This document shows, piece after piece, positions 1-27,603 of a stretch of DNA of 27,603 bases; the stretch's first letter is position 1; each line of letters starts with the position of its first letter. This DNA comes from a virus, in the IMG/VR virus record IMGVR_UViG_3300029893_000058, positions 1-27,603 of that record; one strand, given 5' to 3'. Both the position numbers and the translations under genes were made by a program. Under the pieces are notes generated by a model. The model saw only the letters and a program-made list of their open reading frames with translations, did no database searches and was not told the DNA's origin.

Positions 1-77
1 ATAGGAGAGGATCTATGGATAGTGTCGTTGGTACCTAGTTGACCAAAGTTATTAATTCCCCATAGCCAGAGGGAACC
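1..77. repeat. 77-bp direct repeat, copy 1 (within RCC1 gene)
   Basis: Bases 1-77 are identical to bases 154-230. The spacing of 153 bases equals 51 codons, so this is an in-frame tandem coding repeat of the RCC1-type protein. The copy may extend left of the window. Confidence 0.9.
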
Positions 78-314
78 ATCGGTCTTGATAGCCATGGAGT
101 ATTGATCACCACTAGATATCTGAGCCCAGTTGGTCCCACCACTGATGGTCTGGATAGGAGAGGATCTATGGATAGTGTCGTTGGTACCTAGTTGACCAAA
201 GTTATTAATTCCCCATAGCCAGAGGGAACCTGGTGCTTGATACCCCGGAATATCTGTCCATTTGAGGAATGTTTCATCAAAATCAATACCATTTACTTGG
301 TATCCAGAAGTCAT
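1..314 (-). CDS. RCC1-repeat tail fibre-like protein (5' part, runs off left edge)
   Basis: Only the first 104 codons are in the window; the gene continues beyond the left edge. The start ATG at 312-314 follows a GGAGC SD about six bases upstream. After about 30 N-terminal residues the protein enters RCC1-type repeats, seen as SLWLWGINNFGQLGTND followed by TNWAQISSGDQYSMAIKTDGSLWLWG. Such repeats build beta-propellers. In phages they are found in tail fibres and other adsorption proteins, so a receptor-binding or fibre role is inferred. The repeat unit is 51 codons. Two copies share a 77-base stretch that is identical at nucleotide level, so the repeat array expanded or was homogenised recently. 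It lies downstream of another RCC1 gene on the same strand, and the two may be paralogous fibres. Repeat family call is firm; exact virion role is inferred. Confidence 0.7.
   Translation of the reverse strand, partial: MTSGYQVNGIDFDETFLKWTDIPGYQAPGSLWLWGINNFGQLGTNDTIHRSSPIQTISGGTNWAQISSGDQYSMAIKTDGSLWLWGINNFGQLGTNDTIHRSSP
154..230. repeat. 77-bp direct repeat, copy 2 (within RCC1 gene)
   Basis: This is the second copy, identical over 77 bases to positions 1-77. Complete identity at third codon positions points to recent duplication or gene conversion rather than selection on protein alone. Confidence 0.9.
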
Positions 315-358
315 GTCGCTGCTCCTTTTAAGAATCTTTTAGCCACAGGATGGCTTGG

Positions 359-398
359 TATCTACACCATGGAAGCTTTTGGCTCCATGGTGTAGATA
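359..398. terminator. Hairpin after the small gene 401-577
   Basis: A 14-bp perfect stem (ATCTACACCATGGA and its complement) flanks a short AT-rich loop. It sits immediately downstream, on the minus strand, of the stop codon at 401-403 and upstream of the next RCC1 gene. No clear T-run follows, so it could be an RNA-stability or processing hairpin rather than a classical intrinsic terminator. Confidence 0.6.
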
Positions 399-400
399 TG

Positions 401-577
401 TTAAGCTTTCTGAGGTTGTCGATTATATTTTTTGTCTAACTGGTTTAGGTTTGTTAGCCCTAACATTAGCCAAAGTTTTTCTGCGTTGGTCAAGTAGTGC
501 ACAGTACCATCGCTACAGATCAACATGGAATTAACAACACGTGGATTAGTGGTAGAATGTACATCCATGGTTAACAT
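401..577 (-). CDS. Small unrecognised protein (58 aa)
   Basis: This small reading frame begins MLTMDVHSTTNPRVVNSM and ends at TAA 401-403, just before a hairpin. It overlaps the stop codon of the upstream RCC1 gene, so it is probably translationally coupled to it. The start is uncertain. ATG at 575-577 lies only about three bases from an AAGGA, whereas the in-frame ATG at 566-568 has about twelve bases of spacing. No domain is recognised. The segment NAEKLWLMLGLTNLNQLDKK is amphipathic. Position between two fibre genes suggests a small virion or fibre-assembly factor, but nothing in the sequence proves it. Confidence 0.5.
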   Translation of the reverse strand: MLTMDVHSTTNPRVVNSMLICSDGTVHYLTNAEKLWLMLGLTNLNQLDKKYNRQPQKA

Positions 578-2049
578 CGTTCCTTCTTAATAGCAACAAT
601 ACTAAATAGATCACCAATAGCATAACCCCATTTATCACTATCGTTAACTTTATCTAATCCACTATCAATAGGGTTGTAGTCTAAGCGATAAATATCACCA
701 AGTCTGTCTGTTAGGTAGAACACATCGGTAGGTAAGCTTCTAGATGCATATAGACTTACCCAGTCACTCTTATCACCAAACTGTTCTAGACAAGAACCAT
801 CATCAATACCAGATAGCCAGAAAGTACCGTTTTGTTTGATACAGGCATAAGTAAAGTTTCCAATAACTATCTTATCCCAATCAGTACAATCGCATAGTTG
901 TCGTGGTTTACGATAGCCCTCATCCCAAACCCAGATACTACCATCTGTCTTCAAGGCGATGATGTCGTTATTTTCATTGATAGCAACATCTTTCCATCTA
1001 CGATCTTCACTAATGGTAACTGGACAGTTTACCTCATCATCACCGCGATTGTTAAGATTACCCCAACCATAGATCAGACCATTGAACTTAATAGCTACCG
1101 TAGCAGATCCACCACAAGCTACTTTACTCCAGTCATTACCAACGATTTGTGTGGGTGAAGATTGCGTTTCTTTATTGACATTGCCTAACTGGTAATCGTC
1201 ATTACAACCCCATAACCAAAGAGTGTTATCATTCTTTATGGCTGCTGTATGGAATAAACCAACAGAAACATCACTCCAGTTATTACCTGGTATCTGTACT
1301 GGCGTGGTATATTCAATAGCGCCACTTATGCCGATCTTTGAATAGGTATTACTACCCCACATCCAAAGTGTGCCGTTATCTTTGATGGCGGCTGTTGTAA
1401 GCATATTGAAGCTATCTACTTTAACCCACCTAGAGTCAGTAGTGGAAATTCTGATTGGTTCATTGGTTTCAATAACATCACCAATACCTAATTGACAGTC
1501 TGAATTATCACCAATAGCCCAAAGAGAACCAATCATTCCTTTGTTATACTTGGGTTTGAGTTTATAGTATTGAACAACGCCCTTATCCAGGCTATGGAAT
1601 AACCATGGCCTAAAAAATAGACCTTGATTAGTCTTGAGCTCGATGTTGACTACAGCATCGCCCCATTCGAATGGGTTTCTATAACCAAATTGAAATCCCT
1701 GTAAAGCACTCTCAGCACCAGAGATGTGATGAAACACATTGAACGTAGTAGGTTCGAGCGCGATAACGAAACACCATTCATCTGGATCTGTGAATGATTC
1801 AAAATGAATCCCAAACATGGGTTTCCTGAATAACCCAGATTTCTCTACTTCCAGTACAACTTGTTCTCCAACAGCTTTTGAGAACATGTTCTCAATACCA
1901 GGAAATAGCAAGTTAAAGTCTTTTACTTCACTGCCATATTCAGATGGTTGATATTGAAGCATGCATACAGCATTGAATAGTTTTTGGATCTCATCTGGAT
2001 GAAAAAACTTATCTGCGTGGATAAGAGTAACCATAGAACGATCTGACAT
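571..2049 (-). CDS. RCC1-type seven-bladed propeller tail fibre-like protein
   Basis: The start chosen is ATG at 2047-2049, preceded by AGGAG with eight bases of spacing. A longer GTG-initiated frame to 2115 would begin inside a hairpin and is rejected. The protein is 492 residues. Residues 1 to about 170 form a unique N-terminal domain, probably for virion attachment. From about residue 174 to the end there are seven RCC1-like units, marked by SLWAIG, TLWMWG, TLWLWG, LIYGWG, SIWVWD, TFWLSG and DIYRLD. Seven units is the number needed for a closed propeller. Known phage proteins with RCC1 repeats are fibres or adsorption proteins, so receptor binding is inferred. The last three blades are degenerate. 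It sits directly downstream of the portal-like gene on the same strand, separated by a terminator-like hairpin. Confidence 0.7.
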   Translation of the reverse strand: MSDRSMVTLIHADKFFHPDEIQKLFNAVCMLQYQPSEYGSEVKDFNLLFPGIENMFSKAVGEQVVLEVEKSGLFRKPMFGIHFESFTDPDEWCFVIALEPTTFNVFHHISGAESALQGFQFGYRNPFEWGDAVVNIELKTNQGLFFRPWLFHSLDKGVVQYYKLKPKYNKGMIGSLWAIGDNSDCQLGIGDVIETNEPIRISTTDSRWVKVDSFNMLTTAAIKDNGTLWMWGSNTYSKIGISGAIEYTTPVQIPGNNWSDVSVGLFHTAAIKNDNTLWLWGCNDDYQLGNVNKETQSSPTQIVGNDWSKVACGGSATVAIKFNGLIYGWGNLNNRGDDEVNCPVTISEDRRWKDVAINENNDIIALKTDGSIWVWDEGYRKPRQLCDCTDWDKIVIGNFTYACIKQNGTFWLSGIDDGSCLEQFGDKSDWVSLYASRSLPTDVFYLTDRLGDIYRLDYNPIDSGLDKVNDSDKWGYAIGDLFSIVAIKKERC

Positions 2050-2102
2050 TTTACTGATCTCCTGTTTTGAATCTAACCACTTTATGTTGTCTAACTGGAA
2101 AT

Positions 2103-2142
2103 ATCTACCTACCACCAGGCTAAGTCCTAGTGGTAGGTAGAT
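2103..2142 (-). terminator. Hairpin downstream of the portal-like gene
   Basis: The 13-bp perfect stem ATCTACCTACCAC pairs with its complement at 2130-2142. After one mismatch three further pairs close a six-base loop. It lies nine bases past the stop codon of the portal-like gene, which ends at 2151, and before the SD of the next minus-strand gene. It probably separates or attenuates transcription between portal and fibre. Confidence 0.65.
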
Positions 2143-7904: not shown

Positions 7905-8477
7905 ATGATAACTAACCGTTTGGTCGGTATCGACCCTGGTACAGAGTACTGCGGTGTAACACTGGTAGAGTACTCTATGGACGGTGATGTCATCTCGATA
8001 TCACCAAGAACTATCAACACCAATCATGTTCATTTACCATATGCTGATGATAGGGTGTTATTACATGGTGAAAGATACGCTAGACTGAAAAAACTCTCAC
8101 ATGCTTTTGAGAAAATACTTGGCTCATTTAGGCCAGACACCATAGCGTGTGAAGCTCCATTTTACCATAGACTACATCCAACAGCTTTTGCTCCTTTGGT
8201 AGAAACCGTTTTCGTTCTTAGAAATACTTCTATGGAATTTGATCCAGGCATTCCATTTTTACTTTATCCACCGAGATTGGTTAAGAAAACTAGCGCTGGT
8301 GATTCATATGCCGATAAACCAGCTATGAAAAGAGCCATGCAAGCCAGAAAGGATGTTATCGATCATATCGACACAGCTATCGACTCTCTTAGTGAACATG
8401 CTATCGATTCGATAGCAGTTGCCATGACTCATTTGGATTTGCTTAGAAAGGAACACAATCATGCTACTGGCAATTAG
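7905..8477 (+). CDS. RuvC-like Holliday junction resolvase
   Basis: The 190-residue protein has the RuvC fold signature. VGIDPGTEYCGV gives catalytic Asp10, IACEAPF gives Glu83, and SEHAIDSIAVAM near residues 163-172 gives His165 and Asp168. A Lys and Ala rich segment around 138-148 matches the position of the RuvC DNA-binding loop. The enzyme would cut four-way junctions during recombination-dependent replication or before packaging. Length is close to bacterial RuvC (about 170 residues). It begins a new plus-strand block after the terminator at 7843 and its end overlaps the next gene by 17 bases. An ATCTTCTGG element at 7873-7881, 32 bases before the start, may be its promoter element. Confidence 0.85.
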   Translation: MITNRLVGIDPGTEYCGVTLVEYSMDGDVISISPRTINTNHVHLPYADDRVLLHGERYARLKKLSHAFEKILGSFRPDTIACEAPFYHRLHPTAFAPLVETVFVLRNTSMEFDPGIPFLLYPPRLVKKTSAGDSYADKPAMKRAMQARKDVIDHIDTAIDSLSEHAIDSIAVAMTHLDLLRKEHNHATGN

Positions 8478-27301: not shown

Positions 27302-27346
27302 ATGGCTCCTCTACTTAGTAACGAGGAAGCTATTGACATATTTCCC
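27302..27346 (+). pseudogene. 5' end of a phage gene interrupted by the TnpB element
   Basis: An ATG at 27302, nine bases after the previous stop and preceded by AGAGGA, opens a frame MAPLLSNEEAIDIFPG that looks like a genuine phage N-terminus with AT-rich composition. At about codon 10-17 the sequence changes to the GC-rich, structured right end of a TnpB element. The open frame then continues only to a stop at 27443-27445 through non-coding structured DNA. The rest of the gene should lie beyond the element, outside the window. Its identity is unknown. Whether the gene is dead, rescued by re-initiation or restored by excision cannot be seen. Confidence 0.6.
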
Positions 27347-27506
27347 GGTCTGAACCACAAGTTTCGCAGTAGACCAGGAGTTCTTGGGCCTCACGGTCCA
27401 AGGGTCCCACTTCATCGAGATGCTTACCCTTCTATCGCTAGTTAGGCAGAGGCAAGAGCTCTCCATGGGCTGATACCCGTAGTCATCACGGGCGATAGAT
27501 ACCTTC
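27347..27506 (-). ncRNA. Omega RNA (reRNA) scaffold of TnpB, candidate
   Basis: Reading on the minus strand from the tnpB stop towards the element end there are several helices. An outer stem TCTATCGC/GCGATAGA pairs 27492-27499 with 27431-27438. CCCGT/ACGGG lies inside (27488-27492 with 27476-27480, sharing one base with the outer stem). A hairpin CUUGGACC-GUGA-GGCCCAAG lies at 27383-27402, with one A-C mismatch and a GNRA-type tetraloop. A terminal GGTCT/AGACC pairing lies at 27347-27375, with GGTTCA near the end. Known omega RNAs overlap the tnpB 3' end and run through the right end into flanking DNA, which supplies the guide. The position and structure fit; the fold was made by eye. Confidence 0.65.
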
Positions 27507-27602
27507 CTAGTGCAGGGTAGCTAGGACCGTGACGCCAGGCTCAGAGTGGAAGTTGGTCATGGTTCTGAGGGCTTCATCCCTGATGTTCTGAGCGGCGTTC
27601 AG
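27507..27602 (-). CDS. tnpB: TnpB RNA-guided nuclease, C-terminal 31 residues (partial)
   Basis: Only the last 31 codons and the TAG stop (27507-27509) are in the window; the gene enters from the right edge. The first visible residues, LNAAQNIRDEALR, match the conserved end of the TnpB RuvC-III region (D-x-N-A-A-x-N-I, then E-A/G-L). The catalytic Asp should be the codon or two just beyond the edge. The tail continues TMTNFHSEPGVTVLATLH. TnpB proteins, ancestors of Cas12, use the omega RNA from their own right end to cut DNA matching the flank next to a transposon-adjacent motif. Whether the nuclease core is intact cannot be judged from this window. Confidence 0.8.
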   Translation of the reverse strand: MNAAQNIRDEALRTMTNFHSEPGVTVLATLH

Positions 27603-27603
27603 G

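Follow-up and report, generated by a model that had tools for sequence, protein, structure and literature searches.

A probable IS200/IS605-family right end with a TnpB tail at the edge of a phiKZ-like jumbo phage contig

Genes and features at the right edge of the window

The window is the entire virus record IMGVR_UViG_3300029893_000058, with a length of 27,603 bases, and the finding described here concerns its last 257 bases. The features assigned in and beside this segment are given below; G001 is a further IMG/VR contig, IMGVR_UViG_3300029893_000059.

27507..27602, minus strand: last 31 codons and stop codon of tnpB, assigned from the translation, from 56 bases common with G001 and from PF07282 and IS200_TnpB matches there
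27333..27530, minus strand: putative omega-RNA scaffold and transposon right end overlapping the tnpB 3′ end, assigned from a second, diverged copy on G001, from the fold and from a right-end template; the 5′ limit is a guess
27383..27402, minus strand: internal hairpin CUUGGACC-GUGA-GGCCCAAG, predicted in both copies, with all five substitutions keeping or improving the pairing
27343..27379, minus strand: subterminal right-end hairpin, assigned from the fold and the template scan, with a hairpin of different sequence at the equivalent place in G001
27333..27337, minus strand: GTCAA terminus, where the homology of the two copies stops; bacterial relatives end in GTCAA
27313..27332, minus strand: predicted guide TAGCTTCCTCGTTACTAAGT in the phage flank, proposed from the ISDra2 reRNA (PMC8612924)
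27302..27332, plus strand: start of a probably interrupted phage gene (MAPLLSNEEA.., ATG at 27302), assigned from position only

The minus strand of positions 27602-27510 translates to LNAAQNIRDEALRTMTNFHSEPGVTVLATLH, which comprises 31 codons and is followed by a stop codon at 27509-27507. The tail contains the D.NAA.NI motif of the C-terminal zinc-ribbon/RuvC-III region. With 31 residues it was too short a query to give a match in Pfam or by tblastn, and its exact codon pattern had no match in bacterial genomes. In IMG/VR, the codon pattern of NAAxNIRDEA was found at 18 loci, among them the locus L020 on G001. The left end of this contig is identical to window positions 27547-27602 over 56 bases, and the longer G001 frame that extends the tail matches PF07282 (E 7e-12 and E 4e-10). 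A 58-residue composite of the window tail and G001 matches the NCBIfam family IS200_TnpB (E 1.6e-10). The zinc ribbon is only half kept in G001, with Thr at the second Cys of the first pair. The copy in the window ends with the record after 31 TnpB codons, and the RuvC core of Asp, Glu and Asp falls beyond it. An earlier note made from the window alone had recognized a minus-strand TnpB C-terminus of 31 codons; the translation and, through G001, the PF07282 and IS200_TnpB matches bear this out. As to the complete RuvC nuclease that the note expected further to the right, profile searches recovered PF07282 on the overlapping G001 frame, and the window and G001 contained neither a complete nuclease nor PF01385. 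The sharp shift in base composition that it described at the border is real, the GC content rising from about 0.37 to 0.54-0.56 near the right edge of the window.

The omega-RNA-like region and the right terminus

Compared with shuffled sequences, the 274-nt segment on the minus strand and its 94-nt core fold moderately better (z = -2.0 and z = -2.2, respectively), in line with the structured segment that the earlier note had placed next to the TnpB tail. The border exists as well; its position at 27347 did not hold, since the element ends with GTCAA at 27333, 14 bases further left. A right-end template consisting of GAA, an 8-bp hairpin, a short spacer and GTCAA matches the window at a single place, 27333. 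It is expected at 0.175 sites per window, with P = 0.00025 for the segment, although these values belong to a template that was composed with the site already in view. The right end of the window reads ...GAACTCCTGGTC...GACCGGGAAATATGTCAA and passes into phage DNA, with the subterminal hairpin and TCAA that are characteristic of IS200/IS605 elements. Several bacterial relatives also terminate in GTCAA and differ in their flanks.

With the segment as a DNA query, the second copy was recovered from the right end of G001; this copy is 89% identical over window positions 27426-27373. It reads ...GAATCCTCGTACTTCAGTGCGAGGAGTAAGTCAA before other phage DNA begins; the hairpin is kept, and the GTCAA end is followed by unrelated DNA. 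The two copies were compared by eye, as automatic alignment misplaces the end of the shorter one. In G001 the internal hairpin has the form CUUGGGUC-GUGA-GGCUCAGG, and RNAfold predicts the hairpin in both the window and G001. Substitutions that preserve pairing in two sequences are suggestive of a conserved RNA and fall short of proof. The omega-RNAs of relatives look too divergent for a good alignment. An omega-RNA family hit, which the earlier note had anticipated for this region, was not obtained: strict and permissive searches of Rfam 15 with the window and the segment gave no match, and Rfam may not contain a TnpB omega-RNA model. Of the omega-RNA pattern scans of IMG/VR, the first returned nothing and the final one returned G001 only; two pattern matches were rejected as chance, lacking TnpB. 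A 16-base match in G003, a related phage contig, was likewise judged from its context to be chance.

The predicted guide of the right copy on G001 is ACAAGTCCTGTTGTTCTGTG. Neither this guide nor that of the window matched the fetched sequences outside its own site. At the right end of G001 (L068:2868-3227), this second omega-RNA copy is directed towards the region upstream of a same-strand 119-aa gene, into which its transcript could run.

Taken together, the segment 27333-27603 on the minus strand is supported as the right end of an IS200/IS605-type element with a TnpB tail and an omega-RNA-like region. The tnpA gene that the earlier note had suggested looking for nearby was not detected: TnpA (PF01797) is absent from the window and G001, both of which are fragments, and from the contigs G002-G005 and the phages FLC9, SNUABM_54, SA002, LucasX and PCH45. 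Many members of the IS200/IS605 family lack TnpA, and its absence does not exclude membership.

The phage and the insertion site

The 890-aa protein encoded at 2151-4823 matches 271 phage records, phiKZ included. The genes for an RNase H, a minus-strand protein, a UvsX-like protein, structural proteins, a minus-strand protein of ~130 aa and a protein of ~170 aa follow one another in the window, and this order is common to FLC9, SNUABM_54, SA002, LucasX, PCH45 and the IMG/VR contig L008/G003, whose UvsX-like protein is 61% identical to that of the window. Core proteins and gene order are those of phiKZ-like phages. The assignment of the host to the phiKZ-like jumbo phages is supported, and the earlier note was right to place the element inside the DNA of such a large phage. 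A RuvC-family Holliday junction resolvase is encoded at 7905-8477 on the plus strand (Pfam RuvC, E 3.8e-9).

In the five named phages and L008, a gene of ~140-200 aa follows soon after the ~170-aa gene. The N-terminus of the frame at 27302 could not be aligned with these relatives; judged by position only, the element likely interrupts this ~140-200-aa gene, which falls short of proof. At the left end of the window (3-2115, minus strand), proteins with GSLWLWGINNFGQLGTNDTIHRSSP-type repeats are encoded, which look RCC1-like by eye; these repeats may cause the contig break there. At least four related repeat proteins (DVSxVTDMSxMFxxSxFxGDISxWDVS) are encoded at L069:2688-7013 on G003, near the polymerase gene of this relative.

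The left end of G001

About 50 TnpB codons upstream in G001, the homology to TnpB stops near the hairpin AAAACCACGTCCTTCAGGGCGTGGATATAAG, which is preceded by TTAT|CACAATGAGCGT. The hairpin adjoins TTAT, the putative target motif; the 31-codon piece in the window contains no left end. The cyanobacterial TnpB elements L039 and L040, which occupy different sites, begin in a similar way with TTAT|CAGAAGA...AAAACC-hairpin. The stability of the hairpin region at the left end of G001 is not unusual, so the identification of this end relies on the resemblance in sequence. The copy there looks like a left end joined to the 3′ end of tnpB, with the nuclease core and most of the gene lost. Between the left end of the element and the DNA polymerase gene of G001 (L020:205-788), about 580 bases carry no convincing gene or detected relative.

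The window and G001 probably belong to one phiKZ-like phage, as judged from their separate stretches on G003, their similar identity, their GC content and the 56-base overlap. The proteins of the window map to G003 at about 140-104 kb and those of G001 at about 48-70 kb, with a few genes elsewhere. The median protein identity to G003 is 46% for the window and 48% for G001, two short or overlapping frames included. The GC content of the window and that of the first 5 kb of G001 are both about 40-41%. A direct junction of the two contigs finds no support: the left flank of G001 has no homology to the interrupted gene, as the joined flanks showed, and the places of the two contigs in G003 lie some 55 kb apart. 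The mapping and the end overlap suggest a single phage whose assembly broke at repeated copies of the element, of which the lineage apparently carries at least two diverged ones.

Proposed origin of the element and alternatives

We propose that a phiKZ-like jumbo phage carries an IS200/IS605-family element of which this locus is the right end, and that the element is now short and non-autonomous; we regard this as the probable explanation. The contigs contain the tail, the right end, the second copy and the left-end-like hairpin beside a TnpB remnant. The short form is considered the most likely because the only copy with a readable body is deleted; on this reading, the copy in the window would also have lost most of its tnpB. 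The ISDra2 element is mobilized by TnpA in the form of single-stranded DNA. Its TnpB acts with a right-end RNA that takes its final ~16 bases from the flank; it cuts the empty site, which is proposed to favour restoration of the element (PMC8612924). By analogy, the right end described here would combine the TnpB C-terminus, the overlapping omega-RNA scaffold, the subterminal hairpin and the TCAA cleavage site. An RNA reaching from it into the flank would carry TAGCTTCCTCGTTACTAAGT as a guide of ~16-20 bases and would direct TnpB to the empty site, where repair from the filled copy would restore the element; its movement would be due to a TnpA transposase. In its present state the element would be mobile only with TnpA and cutting only with TnpB, each supplied from elsewhere.

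Several observations count against this explanation. The copy in the window runs off the record, and its own tnpB is possibly complete. At the base following the 56-base overlap, the window has G and G001 has A, which is a synonymous change from GAC in the window to GAT in G001 if the window codon starts with GA. Together with the non-homologous left flank, this difference means that the deleted copy is maybe another one. The unremarkable stability of the left hairpin, the missing Rfam match and the lack of a known empty site also weigh here. It is possible, though rather doubtful, that the TnpB element whose right end the window shows is complete and active but hidden by the contig break, with TnpB and the omega-RNA keeping the element at its site and the deleted copy on G001 being a separate derivative. 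The synonymous change speaks for this, as it implies two alleles or copies, and an intact TnpB of 402 aa exists in another phiKZ-like contig, G002; against it, neither the two contigs nor the relative G003 yielded a complete tnpB, and the sole readable body is the deleted one.

The earlier note had suggested a homing or competition function for the TnpB system, in which TnpB with its guide would cut co-infecting phages that lack the insertion. By analogy with HNH gp210 of phage PhiPA3, an endonuclease with such a role in related phages (PMC11620839), the competition idea is reasonable, and an element within a conserved gene block implies that related phages would have empty sites. Since the window and G001 contain no intact nuclease gene and the related phages among the fetched sequences have no match to the guide, we consider this function highly improbable at the present locus. 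A wider variant, in which several omega-RNA elements with different guides set by their sites would share one TnpB supplied in trans by phage or host and form a dispersed guide set against phages without the insertions, is very unlikely. Nor do we expect an assembly artefact, in which the end of the contig joins a bacterial TnpB element to phage sequence, to be the explanation; its probability appears minimal. The GC jump at the border and the extreme position of the element in the contig would fit such a fusion, but on G001 the diverged copies at either end adjoin phage genes, and the junction falls exactly on the expected terminus. The DNA of the segment had no match in phages and plasmids or in 784 sampled genomes of Pseudomonadota and Cyanobacteriota, which also speaks against such a fusion, although these searches were run without a positive control.

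Comparison with known systems

The intact tnpB gene of G002 is located at L070:2648-3859 (G002:C1, about 67147-68358), and its 402-aa product displays GIDAG, GLEAL and DRDVNAA motifs and matches the solved ISDra2 TnpB chains 8h1j and 8bf8 (E about 1e-61). G002 is a phiKZ-like IMG/VR contig whose portal-like protein shares 39% identity with that of the window. The right end of the G002 element has no clear GTCAA, and the element may be immobile. Two phiKZ-like lineages thus have TnpB elements, the phage of the window with a deleted copy and G002 with an intact gene. A literature search found no paper linking TnpB and Chimalliviridae, and TnpB is unmentioned in a 2025 review on nucleus-forming phages. 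If the TnpB of G002 works inside the phage nucleus, a natural RNA-guided nuclease would be active in a place from which the DNA-targeting defences of the host are excluded. The window itself is of modest value, as a case of IS200/IS605 ends that are present in several copies and probably caused a jumbo phage assembly to break.

As in ISDra2, the RNA region overlaps the 3′ end of tnpB and the right end of the element, with the flank as the guide (PMC8612924). The window differs in having 31 TnpB residues only and an RNA predicted from sequence, and its target motif is TTAT, deduced from G001, instead of the TTGAT of ISDra2. The right end of IS608 has the cleavage site TCAA and the guide box GAAT (PMC5934647). 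The element described here shares with IS608 the right-end hairpin and TCAA as well as the guide box GAAT in G001, and its left motif TTAT resembles the TTAC of IS608; in contrast, the guide box in the window is GAAC, one base off, and neither the window nor G001 yielded a tnpA. The phages phiKp_32 and BUCTxx100 likewise carry an IS200/IS605 TnpB in genomes of ~250 kb. They are only remotely related to the phage of the window (portal identity 24-25%), and their tnpB genes are long open frames. Among the phage records searched, 394 have a relative of TnpB, phages of ~250 kb included. A TnpB in a large phage thus has precedents, and phages commonly carry such elements; the phiKZ-like host is the less usual part.
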